The notes beneath the pieces were generated by a model. That model made no database searches, was not told where the DNA came from, and worked only from the letters and a program-made list of their open reading frames with translations. The position numbers and the translations under genes are program-made. Of a stretch of DNA of 64,000 bases, positions 40,998 through 48,729 are shown piece after piece; the stretch's first letter is position 1, and every line of letters begins with the position of its first letter. The DNA comes from Candidatus Bathyarchaeota archaeon (lineage in GTDB: Archaea > Thermoproteota > Bathyarchaeia > JAPDIZ01): contig JAPDIZ010000002.1 of NCBI GenBank assembly GCA_029259355.1, positions 434,001 to 498,000 on the forward strand, in the 5' to 3' direction.

Positions 40998-41101
40998 GGG
41001 GCCGTAGTCTAGGCTACGGGCTCTGCCCGTAGGGAGAACATGGTCTAGGATACCAGCCTGGGGCGCTGGTGACCTGGGTTCAAATCCCGGCGGCCCCACC
41101 A
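40998..41101 (+). tRNA. tRNA-Pro (anticodon GGG) with a 27-base hairpin insertion in the D loop
   Basis: Acceptor arms GGGGCCG (40998-41004) and CGGCCCC (41091-41097) pair fully, with A as discriminator and encoded CCA to 41101. Anticodon stem CCAGC (41053-41057)/GCTGG (41065-41069) encloses CTGGGGC with anticodon GGG (41060-41062). T arm CTGGG/CCCGG encloses TTCAAAT. D stem GTCT (41007-41010)/GGAT (41048-41051) encloses a loop of 37 bases in place of 8-11. The extra part holds a perfect 8-bp hairpin CTACGGGC-TCT-GCCCGTAG (41014-41032), flanked by GTCTAGG repeats. It may be an intron or a tolerated insertion. Confidence 0.9.
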
Positions 41102-41203: not shown

Positions 41204-41812
41204 CTACGCGCACCACACGTATCCTTCTTGTTCGTCTATCTCCACAATTTCAAGATCTTTTATCCTAGAGAGGTATACCTCTGGTGGCTTCGCTTTGCTT
41301 ATGCTCTGTGCTTTTTGGTATAGGTGGTGGGTGAGAGCTTCTGTCGTATAGGCGTCGGCTTGGGCATAGATTTGGTAAATTACTCCTCTACTTTCTGTCT
41401 GTATGCCTATGAGTATGTAGTTGCCTCCAATTTCGATGTCTTTTTCTCGCATATTTGGAGGTAGCTTTGAGATTACCTCATCAATAGCTTCCCTATACAG
41501 TTGCTTAATGATTTGAGGAAGATCTTCAAGCTTAGCTACTCGGAAGCCTTCTAATGTTGGAATATTGTCTACACTCCATACATCAAGGTCGTCTAGCTTA
41601 CTACCTCTGAAAGCCCTCATTAACTTTCTAAATGCTGTTGCGATTTTCTTTTTATCTTTACAATAGGCATATGCAGTAGCGAAGTGTCTCGTTAATTCTT
41701 TGGTAGTTGTTTTGAAGAGCAGTCCAAGCTTATACAGCTGCTTTTGTGGGAGTTTATCAGCTTTTTCTAAAAGCTGCTCCTGCAGCTCATACTCCCAGCT
41801 TGCGGACATCAT
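41204..41812 (-). CDS. Unrecognised 202-aa protein, last gene of the TGT-like operon
   Basis: MMSASWEYELQEQLLEKADK opens a mostly helical N-terminal half, followed by an alpha/beta C-terminal half (IEIGGNYILIGIQTESRGVI and YQIYAQADAYTTEALTHHLY). No motif is recognised. ATG 41812 overlaps the stop of the LAGLIDADG gene as TAATG, so translation is coupled. Its conservation with the two genes upstream would be the best clue to function. Confidence 0.7.
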   Translation of the reverse strand: MMSASWEYELQEQLLEKADKLPQKQLYKLGLLFKTTTKELTRHFATAYAYCKDKKKIATAFRKLMRAFRGSKLDDLDVWSVDNIPTLEGFRVAKLEDLPQIIKQLYREAIDEVISKLPPNMREKDIEIGGNYILIGIQTESRGVIYQIYAQADAYTTEALTHHLYQKAQSISKAKPPEVYLSRIKDLEIVEIDEQEGYVWCA

Positions 41813-42561
41813 TATCCTCTTCCCCAACGCTTTCTAATGAGTTCTTCAAGTTTTTTCTGCTTCGGCTCGCTAAAGCCTATTTCTTCATAAAATTTTATTA
41901 CATCGCTTTTAAGGAAGATTTCTAAATTGTATAAGGGGTTCCACGACTTCGTTTCTTCACCGTGACGGGCTCGCCGTATTGCTGCATGTATGTTGAATTC
42001 CCTTTCCAAAAGTTCGCATACTTCCCTTAAGCCATCTATGTTAACCGAAGTTGCAATTATTTTGATGTGTTTATGATCACGTGTAGCTGAACCATCGCCA
42101 TCAAAGAACCCTCTTATCCACATTTTCGCAGCTTCTCTGTCTAGGTATTCGAAGGGTACGCTCCATTTCGTGGTAGAGTAATTGCCATACCTTAATAAAT
42201 CATAGGCGGCCTCTTTGTTATATACAGTAACTGCGGTTCGTTTTGGATAATCATGTGCGTTAACTCCGTATATCTTTTTCATTGTTTCAGCGAAGAGCTT
42301 TCTATAGCGTGGATCTTCATCATATGCCGTGACTTCGTAGCGGTATCTTACTCCGTGTTCTTTCCCGCGATACCTGCCATAGTAAGCGCCGCAGCGGATG
42401 TGCCCGTCTGCGCATAGGTAGCCGTGTAGCCATGCTTTTTCTTTTGTAAAGATTTGGCGGTGGCGTTGTGGTGTTACTTCGAGTAGCATTCCTTTGTCGA
42501 GTTTGAATAGCGCTCTGTTTTCGTGTTTTCTTATTTCTCCCTCTGGAAATGGTCCCAGCAC
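41812..42561 (-). CDS. LAGLIDADG-type homing-endonuclease-like protein
   Basis: Two LAGLIDADG motifs are present: AWLHGYLCADGHI near residue 44 and MWIRGFFDGDGSAT near residue 145, each ending in an acidic residue as in active enzymes. The spacing suits a two-repeat monomer. It is free-standing, not inside an intein. GTG 42561 has AAAGGAG five bases ahead. The frame stays open a further 200 bases upstream without a standard start codon, and that extension reads like protein (see finding). It could be a homing enzyme or a sequence-specific nuclease or regulator of the operon. Confidence 0.8.
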   Translation of the reverse strand: MLGPFPEGEIRKHENRALFKLDKGMLLEVTPQRHRQIFTKEKAWLHGYLCADGHIRCGAYYGRYRGKEHGVRYRYEVTAYDEDPRYRKLFAETMKKIYGVNAHDYPKRTAVTVYNKEAAYDLLRYGNYSTTKWSVPFEYLDREAAKMWIRGFFDGDGSATRDHKHIKIIATSVNIDGLREVCELLEREFNIHAAIRRARHGEETKSWNPLYNLEIFLKSDVIKFYEEIGFSEPKQKKLEELIRKRWGRG

Positions 42562-42716
42562 CAGATCTCCTTTGACTACGAGGTAGCCTTGTTGGCTTCG
42601 TATGATGGTGTATTCTCCTAGCTGGATTTGCTGAGTTTCTTCTGTGGTTGGTTTTTGCTGTGTTTGTTTTCCTAGGTTGAAGCGTTCTTGGGCTTGCTGT
42701 TTGTGGAGTCCTGAGC

Positions 42717-43811
42717 CTATTTCTGCTTCCTCCTGTGGAGGTTGATTATTTGGCTTAGGTTGTGTAGCGCTAGGCTCTTTGTGTCTGCGATCAGCTCATT
42801 CCATCTTCTTCCTCGGCAGAATTGGCAGTTGCATTGGTAGAGGATGTTTAGGTCTAGGGACTCGAAGTGGTCTTTGACGTAGGCCATGCCGCGTTTAGCT
42901 CGTAGAAACCAGCTTAGGCTTGCGAAGCGTATTCTGGGGTCTTCGGCTAGGTACGCCATAAACGGGTCTTTTACGTAGGGTGTTCCGTAGATCAAAACCT
43001 CTGCTTTAGAGTCGGAGTATAGAGCCTCTCTAATCATGTACTTGAGCAGTATTTTACCGGGCTTTCCAGCTCTAGCCAGCTCCCTATAGGGAACCACAAA
43101 CGTTCGGTACCCCAGCTCCAAAAGCTTGTTTACGCACCAAGAAACCTGTTTTTGATTAGCTCCCTTCACCACAGCCAACAACGGAATATCCATCTGCTCA
43201 GCTAGGTAGCGAGCGTTTTCCACGTATTTGAGGAGCTGAGTCCACGACACCGCCAACGGATCGTCCATATAGGTGTAGCAGTCTAGCGTCATCGCCGCAT
43301 CGGGCTCAACAGCCTCCAAAAGCTGAACGTAGCGGTCGCCAGAAAGCGTATCCAAATATTCGTCGGGCATTATCGAAGAAGCCACAATCATGCCATCAAA
43401 GCCCAGGTATTCGTGGATACTTCTCTCACTCACCTCCTTCAACAACCTGTTGTTGGCAACCACTTCGCCCAAGCGCACTATGAGGAAGTCGTGCCTTAGC
43501 TGATTCCAGAACCAGCTGTTCTCGTCTCCAAGACTAATTACGGGGACGAATCTGGGGAGATTTACATAAGGTTGCGAAACGGTTTTTGATGGAGTTTGTG
43601 GCATTGGAGGCTTTATCTCCCTAGGCTCTCCCTTTGGACAAACCCATCGAAACACGCAGAAAGTATGCGGATATGTTATCCCGGTATACTGGATGCCGTC
43701 TACGCAACACTCCCTTACCAAACAAGATAAGGAATCACAGCCTGAACAAAGATTGATGCTAAAGAAGTAGCATCTAGAGCAATTCCTTCCACAGTTTTCA
43801 GCTACTTCCAT
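42717..43811 (-). CDS. TGT/DpdA-like transglycosylase-fold protein with Cys-rich N-terminus
   Basis: The C-terminal 280 residues resemble tRNA-guanine transglycosylases: PDEYLDTL near residue 150, VEPDAAMTLDCYTYMDD, PLLAVVKGANQKQ, VLIYGTPYVKDPFMAYL, the zinc site CNCQFC, and a C-terminal ALHNLSQIINLHRR corresponding to the TGT HNL segment. Where archaeal TGTs have FDSASY with the nucleophile Asp, this protein has FASLSWFLRAK, so the Asp is Ala. The N-terminal 50 residues are a cysteine cluster (CGRNCSRCYF, CSGCDSLSC, ECC) not usual in TGT. It may bind or exchange 7-deazaguanine in DNA or RNA, or be non-catalytic. First gene of a three-gene unit with AGGAGG at its 3' end. Confidence 0.65.
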   Translation of the reverse strand: MEVAENCGRNCSRCYFFSINLCSGCDSLSCLVRECCVDGIQYTGITYPHTFCVFRWVCPKGEPREIKPPMPQTPSKTVSQPYVNLPRFVPVISLGDENSWFWNQLRHDFLIVRLGEVVANNRLLKEVSERSIHEYLGFDGMIVASSIMPDEYLDTLSGDRYVQLLEAVEPDAAMTLDCYTYMDDPLAVSWTQLLKYVENARYLAEQMDIPLLAVVKGANQKQVSWCVNKLLELGYRTFVVPYRELARAGKPGKILLKYMIREALYSDSKAEVLIYGTPYVKDPFMAYLAEDPRIRFASLSWFLRAKRGMAYVKDHFESLDLNILYQCNCQFCRGRRWNELIADTKSLALHNLSQIINLHRRKQK

Positions 43812-43880
43812 ACAATAGACATTAGAACAGGTTCAAATACTAAAGAATTTCACAACATCGCCTATTTATTCTCAAAGTTG

Positions 43881-44984
43881 TCATAAAACGAGGTAGGCAA
43901 ACAAATCCTTTATGCGATGATCCGTCCCAAGTGAGAATACAAAAAGAACATCTTCCTTAGGACTCGTGGAAACAGAAGCTCTATGCCGAGAGAACTGGCG
44001 CAGTATAATTTTGTCAGCTGATATAACCTTTGTTTTCATCATAAAACATACCCCAACAAAGTCTCCTCGGTAATACATCCTATAGGTTGTTAAGCAATCG
44101 ATGATGCCTCGGTTTTTCAACCTACTTGCATCAATTAGTTCAGGCTCTACACAACCATCTTTCCCTACAGGAATCAAGTTGATGGGAAAATCTTCTTGCA
44201 CGTTTGACGAGCATCCCTTAATAATTAACTTAAGTCTTTTCTCAACTATAATGTAAGGTAGTTTAAGAGTCCATGCTACGAATGGACCATCTCGCTTTGT
44301 TACAGGAATGGGACTGAGTAACTTTACAAATTGCTCCATCATTAGCTGCACAAACCTACAACGAAATGGTGATGTGCGTCTTCTTAGGCAATTGTACAAG
44401 AAATATCGTTTTACAAGATCTTCAAACCAACTTAGCCATTCATCTGTCTGATATTGTTGTTCAACCTTTGCAAAATACAATAGGAAAGGTATTGATAGAA
44501 CTATGGCTATGGAGAGGAAGAGATTATCATAAATATAGGCCAAAATACGCAGCTGGTTTTGGGTCGCCATTCTCATAAGTGAATCAAGTAGTATAACAGA
44601 AGTTAGTAGCGTGAGATGATATAGGGACAGAATAGAAATCGAACCTAGAATAAATGTCTTGTCTTTTTCTCGTATATTCTCCATGAAACACTCATTACGA
44701 AGCTTTTCTAACAACACTTTTGGAGATTCAATGCCCTCGCTAAGCATGTTTAAGGCATCTTTGGAGAGTTTATTCTGGAAAATTTCCCAAGAAATGATGT
44801 ATAAAAGAGCTAAAAATGCTAGCACAACAGCAATTAACCAGAAATCTATGACATACACCTGCGTTGCAAACGAGATAAGCCTGCTAGCTACAATCATCAT
44901 CAGGAGTACTTGGGTGATTAGTAACGGTTTTTTAGAAACAATACCATAAGCATAGGAAACTGTTTGAGTGAGGAGATTCATCAT
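43881..44984 (-). CDS. Membrane protein with large soluble C-terminus, unknown
   Basis: Four hydrophobic segments occur in the first 170 residues (TQVLLMMIVASRLISF, FWLIAVVLAFLALLYIISW, ISILSLYHLTLLTSVILL, LFLSIAIVLSIPFLLYFA), then about 195 soluble residues with several Cys. Codons are AT-richer than in the chromosome core, supporting recent acquisition. No family recognised. It lies between the TGT-like and Mrr-like genes on the same strand, each with a gap, and could be the membrane effector of a defence module, which is speculation. Confidence 0.7.
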   Translation of the reverse strand: MMNLLTQTVSYAYGIVSKKPLLITQVLLMMIVASRLISFATQVYVIDFWLIAVVLAFLALLYIISWEIFQNKLSKDALNMLSEGIESPKVLLEKLRNECFMENIREKDKTFILGSISILSLYHLTLLTSVILLDSLMRMATQNQLRILAYIYDNLFLSIAIVLSIPFLLYFAKVEQQYQTDEWLSWFEDLVKRYFLYNCLRRRTSPFRCRFVQLMMEQFVKLLSPIPVTKRDGPFVAWTLKLPYIIVEKRLKLIIKGCSSNVQEDFPINLIPVGKDGCVEPELIDASRLKNRGIIDCLTTYRMYYRGDFVGVCFMMKTKVISADKIILRQFSRHRASVSTSPKEDVLFVFSLGTDHRIKDLFAYLVL

Positions 44985-45042
44985 CTCCTTGTCTAATGAA
45001 TGAAATTGTTGGCTATATTGATTTCTTGAAAAAAATAAAATT

Positions 45043-46203
45043 TTAGAGCATCACCATATCTGCGAAAACCATCTGCGTAAATATGCGTTGTAAAGTGCCT
45101 TTCAATTCAGCTCCTCTCACCAAGTCGATTACTTTTATTTCTTCTCCTCCTTTCTCACTTACTTTAGCAATGTAGTAAGGGTAGTATATTAGCCTCTGAT
45201 CTTCTGCTTTTAGATCCCAGAGAGCTTCTAGCGATTCTTTGATATCGGCTTGATCTAGTTGGGGTTTTACGAGGATTCCAGTTTTGGGCTCTCCTTCTGA
45301 TAGGGTGACTTGGGGACTTAGGGGGCTTAGAGCTTCGAGCCTTGGCTTTTTAAAGGTGTAGTAGATCTGCCTCCCAGCTTTTGCCATCTTAACAACTCCG
45401 CGAGATGCTAGGCCTTGAAGGGCTTTTCTTGCTTTGGCGCCTGACCAAGAAAGCCGCGAGGCTAGGGCGGGAACAGTCATCGATTCATTCTCAGCAAGCA
45501 CTCTTAGGGCTTCTAATTCGTCTCGTGACAACTCTAAGCTTTTTAGAAGAGGCATTACTGGGGTAAAGCCACTCGCCTTTGAATAGGTTACTATGTCTCC
45601 AACAACGGCGTCAGCCAAAACGCTGATTCTCATAACTCTTTCCTTGGTAGTTCTTCGAAGGAATCCTTCCTTAACAGTCAATAGAAGCTCACATTCGACT
45701 TCGAAGTAGGGGTAGAAAACAACAGCTTCTCCTAGGACATCTCCCTTTATCTTTTCTCTTGCTTCTTCGGGGGATAATGATGGATTAACATGGAAAACCT
45801 GGCGATGCATCAATACAGTCTCTATAGGCGCTTCTATCTCTGCTAGCAGTTCTCTAAGCCTAGAGTATTCCCAGAGGTCGATGGGGTAGTCTTTAGCTAT
45901 GCTCACTGCATCTGGTGTGAAGTATGAAGTTGTTACGAGGATTCCTCTATCAACACCAATGTCCAATACTTCTTGAATGAGCTTCATAACCACATCCTTA
46001 TCTACAGGTTTGTCGTAAGCCTTGCACTCGATGATAATTCTCGAAGTATGTAAAGGAGCTCTGTATTCAGCGTAGACATCTATCTGGTGCTCAACTCCCG
46101 ATCTTCCTCGAAACTTCATATTATGCTTGACAAAATATCCCTTTGAGGAAAAAAGTTGAGCTACGAGCCTCTCAAGCTCAAGCCCTTTTTCATAACCGTT
46201 CAT
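45043..46203 (-). CDS. Mrr-like restriction endonuclease fused to winged helix
   Basis: The N-terminal 130 residues form a PD-(D/E)xK nuclease: EHQIDVYAEY provides the Asp and IIIECKAYDKPVDKDVVMKL the E-x-K, followed by GILVTTSYFTPDAVSIAKDY, typical of Mrr_cat/restriction endonuclease-like domains. A central winged helix (ESMTVPALASRLSWSGAKAR, KALQGLASRGVVKMA) follows. The C-terminus is unassigned. Such proteins cleave modified or foreign DNA. Its proximity to a TGT-like gene invites a modification-sensing model. Start at 46203 is ATG. Confidence 0.85.
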   Translation of the reverse strand: MNGYEKGLELERLVAQLFSSKGYFVKHNMKFRGRSGVEHQIDVYAEYRAPLHTSRIIIECKAYDKPVDKDVVMKLIQEVLDIGVDRGILVTTSYFTPDAVSIAKDYPIDLWEYSRLRELLAEIEAPIETVLMHRQVFHVNPSLSPEEAREKIKGDVLGEAVVFYPYFEVECELLLTVKEGFLRRTTKERVMRISVLADAVVGDIVTYSKASGFTPVMPLLKSLELSRDELEALRVLAENESMTVPALASRLSWSGAKARKALQGLASRGVVKMAKAGRQIYYTFKKPRLEALSPLSPQVTLSEGEPKTGILVKPQLDQADIKESLEALWDLKAEDQRLIYYPYYIAKVSEKGGEEIKVIDLVRGAELKGTLQRIFTQMVFADMVML

Positions 46204-46307: not shown

Positions 46308-46760
46308 CTATTTGCAGCGCGGAGGCTTCCACTCCTTTAGCCTTTTCCTAACCTCTTCGGGTATGGGATTCTCCACGATGAGGCCATACTCTGGGGCTTT
46401 TTTAGCTATGTGTGCATCGTTGGAGACCACTATGGGTATGCTGTGTTTGAGAGCTGTGGCTATTAAGAAGCCGTCTCCGAGTGGGATGCCTGCGTGCTTA
46501 GCTAACTCCACCCCGTCTAGAGAGGGTTCGACAACTTCTAAGCCCATCAGCGCGGTGGATAGTTTCTTTAGAAGCTCTCTAGCAGGTCTTACGCGGTAGA
46601 ACCAGTAGAGGACGTTGTAAACCTCTAGGATTGTTGTGTGGGTTACGTACAGCTTCAGCTCACCGAGCAAACCCTTCTCAACCAGCTGCCAAGCGTGTTG
46701 GTGAGCTGGGCTTTGGTCGTAGAGGGCGTAGGGAAAGATGTCGGCATCTAAAATTCTCAA
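46308..46760 (-). CDS. vapC: PIN-domain toxin (VapC-like)
   Basis: A 150-residue PIN RNase: DADIFPYALYD with the first acidic residue, the conserved Glu in THTTILEVYNVLYWF, and GDGFLIATALKHSIPIVVSND as the third acidic motif. It is cotranscribed with an AbrB-type antitoxin gene 4 bases upstream. PIN toxins cleave tRNA or rRNA. Start ATG 46760 (MRILDADIF). Confidence 0.9.
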   Translation of the reverse strand: MRILDADIFPYALYDQSPAHQHAWQLVEKGLLGELKLYVTHTTILEVYNVLYWFYRVRPARELLKKLSTALMGLEVVEPSLDGVELAKHAGIPLGDGFLIATALKHSIPIVVSNDAHIAKKAPEYGLIVENPIPEEVRKRLKEWKPPRCK

Positions 46761-47309: not shown

Positions 47310-47525
47310 ATGAGTGTAATACTTACTGTTAGGATTCCCAAGAGCCTTAGGGATAGGATGAGGAAAATCGATGTTGATTGGAGCGAGGAGATTAGGAGGT
47401 TTATTGAGGAGAGGGTTAGGCTTTACGAGCTTGTCCAAATCGTGGAGTCTGTTTCGCAAAGGGCTCGGAGCCGAGGGGTTTCTGTAGATAGCGCAGAGCT
47501 GATTAGGGAGGATCGAAGCAGGTGA
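47310..47525 (+). CDS. vapB: VapB antitoxin (ribbon-helix-helix)
   Basis: MSVILTVRIPKSLRDRMRKI then DVDWSEEIRRFIEERVRLYE is the archaeal VapB pattern: a beta strand, then helices, then a toxin-wrapping tail. ATG 47310 has AGGTGAT ahead; the in-frame ATG at 47289 lies upstream of that site. It overlaps vapC by 4 bases (GTGA). A TTTTTTAAAG box near 47256 is the likely promoter. Confidence 0.9.
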   Translation: MSVILTVRIPKSLRDRMRKIDVDWSEEIRRFIEERVRLYELVQIVESVSQRARSRGVSVDSAELIREDRSR

Positions 47526-47959
47526 TAGTCCTCGACGCAAGCGCTCTAGCCAAGCTCGTTTTGGAGGAGGAGCAAAGCCAAATCGCGAGAGAGCTTGTAG
47601 CAAAGGCGGCGAAAAGCGGTGAAAAGCTTGCTGCACCAGATATCGCTTTAGCTGAGGTGCTGAACACGCTCTGGAAGCACCACCAATTGCTTCACGACCT
47701 AAGCGAAGAGAGCTACTGGGAAGCAATCGAAGACCTGCTATCGATATGGGACAGGATCCAAGTATACTCCACTCGAGAGCTAGCCAAAGAAGCTTCCTCA
47801 ATCGCTGCAAAGCTCAGGCAAACCATATACGACTCGCTGTATCTGTCGTTGGCGAAGAAGCTTGGGGCAGAGCTTATGACCTTCGACCGATTGCTGAGAA
47901 AAGCAGCTGCAGAAATTCATGTATCAACTGTTCCCAGCGACGGACAAGCTCGTCGCTAG
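47522..47959 (+). CDS. vapC: VapC toxin (PIN RNase)
   Basis: IVLDASALAKLVLEEEQSQI, APDIALAEVLNTLWKHHQ and QTIYDSLYLSLAKKLGAELM with TFDRLL are the four acidic-residue motifs of PIN domains. 145 residues, GTG start overlapping the vapB stop. All catalytic acids (D, E, D, D) are in place, so it should be active. Confidence 0.93.
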   Translation: MIVLDASALAKLVLEEEQSQIARELVAKAAKSGEKLAAPDIALAEVLNTLWKHHQLLHDLSEESYWEAIEDLLSIWDRIQVYSTRELAKEASSIAAKLRQTIYDSLYLSLAKKLGAELMTFDRLLRKAAAEIHVSTVPSDGQARR

Positions 47960-48091: not shown

Positions 48092-48316
48092 ATGTCTGCC
48101 AGAATAACGGTTCGAATACCTAAGCACTTGAAGGAGGAGATGGAGAGGTTTAGCTACGTTAAGTGGAGCGAGGTTGTTAGGGAAGCTATTGAGGAGAGGG
48201 TTAGGCTTGAGAGGATCAAGTGGGGTTTAGAGGCTATGGAGCGCATAAGCCGAGAAGCTAGGCTAGACAAGCCCTCTCACCAGCTTATTAGAGAGCTTAG
48301 AGATGGTTTGCGTTGA
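48092..48316 (+). CDS. vapB: VapB antitoxin, second plus-strand pair
   Basis: MSARITVRIPKHLKEEMERF and SYVKWSEVVREAIEERVRLE closely resemble the preceding VapB, so the two pairs probably arose by duplication or repeated acquisition. ATG 48092 starts the conserved region; the longer frame from 48026 is AT-rich leader. It overlaps the next gene by 4 bases. Confidence 0.9.
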   Translation: MSARITVRIPKHLKEEMERFSYVKWSEVVREAIEERVRLERIKWGLEAMERISREARLDKPSHQLIRELRDGLR

Positions 48317-48729
48317 GGGCTGTGCTAGATACGAGCGCTATCGCTAAGTGGTTTCTGCGCGAAGAAGAGTCTAGCGAGTGTAAGCAGCTTAGGGACGCGT
48401 TCCTCAGAGGCGAGGTCGAGCTCATAACTTGCGGGTTTGCCTTGGTTGAGCTATCCAATGTGCTGCGATACGCCAAGGGCCTTTCACCGAGGGACGTGGT
48501 GGATGCTTTGGAGGCGGTGAAGGCTATAGGCATAGAGCTTTTCGACGAACACACACTTCTCGAAAAAGCTGTGGAGCTTGCCTTTGTGCAAGGCATCACC
48601 GTCTACGATTCCCTCTTCATCTCCCTAGCTATGGAAATTGGGGCAAAGCTGGTGACCTACGACCGAGTTTTGTTGGAGAAGTTTCCTAAGCTAGCTGTGG
48701 TGGCGAGCCAGCTGCTCAGGGAGCTATAG
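48313..48729 (+). CDS. vapC: VapC toxin, second plus-strand pair
   Basis: AVLDTSAIAKWFLREEESSE, TCGFALVELSNVLRYAKG and GITVYDSLFISLAMEIGAKL with TYDRVLL give an intact PIN active site. 138 residues. TTG 48313 overlaps the vapB stop. It is clearly related to the VapC at 47522 but diverged, so the partners may be specific. Confidence 0.93.
   Translation: MRAVLDTSAIAKWFLREEESSECKQLRDAFLRGEVELITCGFALVELSNVLRYAKGLSPRDVVDALEAVKAIGIELFDEHTLLEKAVELAFVQGITVYDSLFISLAMEIGAKLVTYDRVLLEKFPKLAVVASQLLREL

Follow-up and report, generated by a model that had tools for sequence, protein, structure and literature searches.

Three genes on the same strand of an archaeal genome encode, in order, a protein that resembles the transglycosylase TGT without its expected catalytic aspartate, a LAGLIDADG endonuclease, and a protein of no recognized family, which raises the question of what function such a combination could serve. 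An initial annotation of the sequence proposed a deazaguanine-based (DpdA-like) module for modifying or sensing DNA or RNA, or else a nuclease-guided variant. Here, the locus is analyzed together with its relatives in other archaeal genomes.

Organization of the locus

Three minus-strand open reading frames of the window (the whole 64,000-nucleotide stretch of DNA analyzed, from a genome of 1.74 Mb) fill positions 41204-43811 according to the window's ORF list, and the features that the initial annotation had described there, namely three same-strand genes, an AGGAGG sequence, and a TAATG overlap, are all present; the overlap lies at the end of gene 2 and the start of gene 3 (ATG at 41812). 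The G+C content of the three-gene block is 45%, compared with 53-54% in its surroundings. The locus comprises the following features:

42717-43811, minus strand: gene 1, TGT-fold protein with a Cys-rich N-terminal head (364 aa; catalytic Asp absent, Zn site kept)
41812-42720, minus strand: gene 2, N-terminal tag GSGxxxQxxxRF followed by an I-DmoI-like two-motif LAGLIDADG endonuclease
41204-41812, minus strand: gene 3, orphan protein (~202 aa from ATG 41812; 207 aa if from TTG 41827)
40998-41101, plus strand: interrupted tRNA-Pro gene, 3' end toward the cassette, presumed insertion target (ARAGORN with introns)
43830-43838, plus strand: GGTTCAAAT, identical to the T-arm of tRNA-Pro, at the expected place of a second repeat
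42727-42732, minus strand: AGGAGG, Shine-Dalgarno-like, ahead of gene 2 and within the end of gene 1

The tRNA-Pro gene escaped the default tRNA scan, and gene 3 ends 102 bp past it. Its AGG anticodon, as called by ARAGORN, is probably misplaced, GGG being read by eye, and an apparent hairpin intron is visible by eye in the D-loop region. On the other side of the block, low-G+C genes at 43881-46203 encode a membrane protein whose family is unknown, at 38% G+C, and a restriction endonuclease of the Mrr type that carries a winged-helix domain; these neighbors may share an island with the block. PIN-domain (VapC-like) proteins appear to be encoded in a row at 46308-46760, 47522-47959, and 48313-48729, the first of which was compared with Pfam.

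Gene 1 shows the TGT fold but has lost both catalytic aspartates

The AlphaFold2 model of gene 1 (mean pLDDT 72; mostly 80-90 in the barrel and about 30 in the Cys head) was compared with PDB structures using Foldseek, and the top match was arcTGT (1IQ8; E=1.2e-13, prob 1.00). A profile of the gene 1 family also matched 1IQ8 (hmmsearch, E=1.4e-8), and the PADLOC 'TGT' profile matched gene 1 itself (E=1.7e-7). Pfam gave no match, and the score against NCBIfam TgtA (TIGR00432) was 14.8 bits, below the equivalog cut-off of 350; a separate, normal TgtA is encoded in the same genome. The modeled fold places gene 1 inside the TGT superfamily, not outside it, and the landmarks from which the initial annotation had deduced this relationship (PLLAVVKGANQ, CNCQFC, and HNL) are present. 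Gene 1 shares with TgtA/arcTGT (1IQ8, 1J2B) the TIM-barrel fold, the CxCxxC...HN zinc site, VKG where the vQGg segment would stand, and a tRNA-binding ancestry. Its 364 aa are too few to accommodate a C-terminal PUA region like that of TgtA.

At the nucleophile site, gene 1 has FASLSWF, whereas archaeal TgtA proteins, including the one from this genome, have FDSASY or FDSAAY. This replacement had been noticed in the initial annotation, which overlooked both the loss of the other catalytic Asp, with Ser145 (VASSIM) standing where TgtA has MTDSG, and the extent of these changes across the family. In an alignment of 17 type-A and 6 type-B relatives (type B is described below) with seven ordinary TgtA proteins, this genome's own included, the catalytic Asp pair was absent from 23/23 family sequences and present in 7/7 TgtA controls, with Ser at the MTDSG position and Ala, Ser, Gly, or Val at the FDSASY position. 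Since the loss is common to the whole family, it is a family trait and not damage to, or a quirk of, the copy in the window. The Zn ligands C327, C329, C332, and H350 (CxCxxC...HN) are invariant in the 17-sequence type-A alignment, the Cys cluster being missing in two type-B members; D177 and E244, which align near TGT base-pocket positions, are invariant as well. The Cys-rich head reported earlier was also found, with 8 cysteines counted in residues 1-50 instead of 'about nine' and 10 in residues 1-58; nine head cysteines are invariant.

Gene 2 encodes a tagged LAGLIDADG endonuclease

Gene 2 matches Pfam PF14528 (E=6.6e-14), its endonuclease part matches I-DmoI in a profile comparison (E=1.6e-9), and both previously noted LAGLIDADG motifs are present (LCADG and FFDGDG). 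The listed open reading frame starts with GTG at 42561, and conserved homology extends up to 42720, where the N-terminus GSGLHKQQAQERF aligns with MGGGSRVKQYERRF of the relatives; the corresponding tag region reads MGGGSRxxQYERRF in relatives and GSGLHKQQAQERF in the window. The start codon, judged from the sequence, is likely a non-ATG ATA that overlaps the TAG stop of gene 1 just after AGGAGG, a position occupied in relatives by ATG or TTG. Gene 2 is free-standing: it lies between the two other genes of the cassette and not within an intron or intein.

The cassette in related genomes

Relatives of gene 1, 35-41% identical and present in several copies per genome, were found in another lineage by a phylum-wide search; their named records are mostly Candidatus Brockarchaeota, and the sequences are metagenome assemblies. 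The family was detected only by phylum-wide and profile searches: no other member was found in the window's class (0/256 other genomes, 257 including its own), single-protein scans of viral contigs, phages, and genome contigs gave no match, and neither did a profile scan of viral contigs. In the relatives, the cassette order is fixed, with the TGT-like gene, a LAGLIDADG gene (~310 aa), and a third gene (~225 aa) tightly coupled, and stops and frameshifts disrupt many of the copies. None of the cassettes encodes an integrase or transposase, only the three genes lie between the repeats described below, and the cassette ends show direct repeats instead of terminal inverted repeats, of which none was seen. 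The cassettes are densely packed with genes and therefore leave scant non-coding space for a guide RNA.

The three-gene order described for the window is kept in other genomes insofar as the gene 1-gene 2 pair is followed there by a third gene. Gene 3 occupies the same place as this ~225-aa gene and is of similar size, without recognizable homology to it. Comparison with the profile of the third-gene family (hhalign, 0.4%) and with locus L046 revealed no link, no homolog of gene 3 was found within the window's class, and gene 3 remains an orphan, as the initial annotation had it. The third-protein family of the relatives (L078:8000-8668 and its relatives) yields an AlphaFold2 model with pLDDT 93 that has no match among PDB folds below E=0.01 and possibly represents a new fold.

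Insertion beside tRNA genes and direct repeats

A tRNA gene lies directly beside the cassette at ~14 distinct sites covering at least 9 isotypes and, for most cassettes, at a distance of 0-140 bp from the edge (ARAGORN with introns). The neighboring tRNAs are Gly-TCC, Thr-TGT, Thr-CGT, Pro-CGG, Ala-GGC, Ala-CGC, Arg-CCG, Leu-TAA, Glu-CTC, Glu-TTC, Ile-GAT, Met, Asp, and the Pro of the window; the cassette is nearly always 3' of the tRNA, the exception being Gly-TCC, where it lies on the 5' side. Adjacency at 13/22 sites has a binomial probability of ~1e-21 at a chance of ~1% per site, a value that rests on an estimated 46 tRNAs in 2.1 Mb. At ~7-8 of roughly 24 distinct sites, no tRNA was found nearby, including by Rfam and tRNA 3'-end BLAST searches; by the same searches, two copies without a called tRNA (L087 and L092) nevertheless lie at tRNA-Leu-like sequences.

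Six copies carry direct repeats at both ends that correspond to the T-arm-to-3'-end part of their own neighbor tRNA, so the tRNA gene remains intact. The repeats are as follows:

L056: 48 bp, 100%
L066: 52 bp, 98%
L058: 38 bp
L064: 40 bp
L069: about 34-40 bp
L092: repeat present

Repeat boundaries vary. A fixed-length target-site duplication is not proven, because the L066 repeat includes ~24 bp of the end of the third gene and two sister 'empty' sites carry tails that by eye are similar to it; some of the 'empty' sites could be scars that earlier copies left behind. In the window, the only candidate second repeat is the 9-bp GGTTCAAAT, which is within shuffled expectation, is not significant alone, and is possibly a decayed remnant. 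Because no second repeat can be demonstrated there, the window's cassette is counted as a member for its genes 1 and 2, its gene order, and its tRNA neighbor, not for repeats.

Several comparisons point to movement. A second cassette in genome G304 (L064) separates genes that neighbor each other in G290 (L058), and at tRNA-Ala(CGC) the cassette is absent in three sister genomes (G290, G329, and G269). At the tRNA-Glu(CTC) site, the flanks match in G269 (L055) and G304 (L062) and the cassettes are oppositely oriented, which indicates independent insertions. Two elements, L057 and L066, are 90% identical over 2.8 kb and occupy different tRNA-Ala genes in different genomes.

Some sites show further peculiarities. 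At the tRNA-Gly site (L061, L059, L068, L038), where the cassette is 5' of the tRNA, the third gene is inverted and located upstream of the TGT-like gene, and 49-58 bp of the 3' end of the LAGLIDADG gene are directly repeated beside it. The tRNA-Ala(CGC) gene in G261 and G304 has a different anticodon arm and is ~17 nt shorter than in sister genomes (L066/L122 compared with L121/L123/L124), and the T-arm of tRNA-Arg differs between G304 (L064) and G290 (L058). These differences may stem from conversion of tRNA genes in connection with insertion.

Type-B relatives and exchangeable nucleases

In type-B relatives, the TGT-like protein is fused to a calcineurin-like phosphoesterase (Pfam Metallophos/Metallophos_2; L042, L045, L047, L048, L040, L049, L154-L157). 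Downstream are LAGLIDADG/HTH proteins or long proteins whose ends look by eye like PD-(D/E)XK nucleases; the latter gave no Pfam match. The N-termini of the type-B partners resemble the tag (MGQ.SAELNYERRL). At one type-A locus (L050:1657-2817), the gene after the TGT-like gene keeps an MGxGxRxxQYxRRF tag without LAGLIDADG motifs, and its C-terminus, by eye, apparently resembles a PD-(D/E)XK nuclease. Because type-B genes are mostly away from tRNA genes, TGT folds may have been paired with exchangeable nucleases before the tRNA-targeted element arose. An anaerobic ribonucleotide reductase (L042:95-5305) whose inteins carry LAGLIDADG domains lies beside one type-B gene.

Discussion

The three genes are, in our judgment, probably one copy of a compact selfish archaeal element whose insertion sites are tRNA genes and whose catalytically dead TGT fold brings an endonuclease to the tRNA or tDNA that it recognizes. 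That the element inserts at tRNA genes is well supported, whereas the targeting role of the TGT-fold protein is one that we infer. In the proposed mechanism, this protein would no longer exchange bases and would recognize either what tRNAs share in shape or sequence or, on the DNA, the T-arm/B-box of the tRNA gene, the sole feature common to all targets. The tag would dock the endonuclease, which would thereby reach the 3' part of tRNA genes of any kind; the resulting break would be repaired by copying in the element, with duplication of the T-arm-to-3' end and survival of the host tRNA. The third protein presumably acts as an accessory factor (DNA-binding or repair-steering). To the broader proposition we give about even credence: that these cassettes form a new class of mobile elements, in which the fold of a dead tRNA-modifying enzyme serves as a universal tRNA/tDNA recognition subunit and steers an endonuclease, itself exchangeable, toward the T-arm/3' end of whichever tRNA gene is targeted, where the three-gene cassette inserts and the tRNA end is duplicated without integrase, transposase, or guide RNA.

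The same loci could also be read as passive tRNA-borne islets, moved in trans by a tyrosine integrase of the host or a plasmid or riding larger elements, with tRNA 3' ends as att sites and genes 1-3 otherwise employed, for example in defence or addiction. Direct repeats of tRNA 3' ends, such as those found here, are classic att-site signatures, and the position of most type-B TGT-metallophosphatase/nuclease pairs away from tRNA genes would suit this reading. We nevertheless consider it unlikely, since every cassette is devoid of an integrase, many isotypes are targeted within one genome with repeats that match each local tRNA, and both orientations occur, even at a single tRNA-Glu site, whereas att recombination fixes orientation. 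It is quite improbable that the genes form a defence or toxin module, in which a TGT-fold sensor of tRNA or modified nucleic acid is coupled to a nuclease and which accumulates in islands beside tRNA genes. The swaps between LAGLIDADG and PD-(D/E)XK-like nucleases, the metallophosphatase fusion in relatives, the similar TGT and homing-endonuclease profiles listed in PADLOC, and the nearby Mrr-type gene in the window speak for it; however, multicopy spread with tRNA repeats and the many pseudogenized copies fit selfish elements better, and the three genes alone adjoin the tRNA ends, with no other island cargo.

The deazaguanine proposal of the initial annotation, restated as a DpdA/TGT-like base-exchange module with an altered active site, can draw on the TGT fold, the Zn site, and the invariant D177 and E244. 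We regard it as very improbable, given that the catalytic Asp pair is replaced throughout the family and kept in all TgtA controls that the context is that of a mobile element, and that gene 1 matched no DpdA family in Pfam, NCBIfam, or PHROGs. No phage homolog was found, and no dpd-like neighbor was seen. The 'nuclease-guided variant' suggested there comes close to the selfish-element reading, the evidence for a mobile element at tRNA genes having escaped that annotation.

Each part of the proposed element has known counterparts. Gene 1 differs from TgtA in its Ser145 and its Ala/Ser/Gly/Val nucleophile position, in its extra Cys-rich head, and in being encoded in a mobile cassette. QTRT2, the non-catalytic subunit of eukaryotic queuine TGT, has a TGT fold and a zinc site, lacks the catalytic Asp, and acts as a binding partner; it is neither mobile nor nuclease-paired. 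I-DmoI shares with gene 2 two LAGLIDADG motifs on one chain, but gene 2, unlike I-DmoI-type homing endonucleases, is not intron- or intein-borne, has an extra ~100-aa N-terminal part with the tag, and is accompanied by a TGT-fold partner. Tyrosine-integrase tRNA elements resemble the cassette in insertion at the tRNA 3' end, in tRNA-derived direct repeats, and in leaving the tRNA intact; the cassette differs in having no integrase, either orientation, many isotypes per genome, and three genes only. The eukaryotic retrotransposons Ty1/Ty3 and TRE use tRNA neighborhoods as safe havens, but the cassette encodes no reverse transcriptase or integrase, and its insertion repeats part of the tRNA gene. 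TGT paralogs, LAGLIDADG enzymes, and tRNA-targeted elements are familiar individually; we know of no integrase-less tRNA-gene element that combines them. A literature search, with preprints and most subscription papers outside its scope, found no matching element, and this archaeal mobile element is apparently undescribed.

These results suggest that an RNA-modifying enzyme has come to serve as the address finder of a mobile gene. If this is true, a mobile element finds its target by a repurposed RNA-modification fold and not by an integrase, transposase, or guide RNA, and its address is a whole gene family, the tRNA genes, instead of a single site. A targeting unit made of protein alone, with nucleases that can be swapped, would then constitute a new mechanism of genome invasion and would offer a model, open to testing, for the change from RNA enzyme to DNA address finder, as well as a function to look for in the unnamed TGT-paralog family, TGT-metallophosphatase fusions included.
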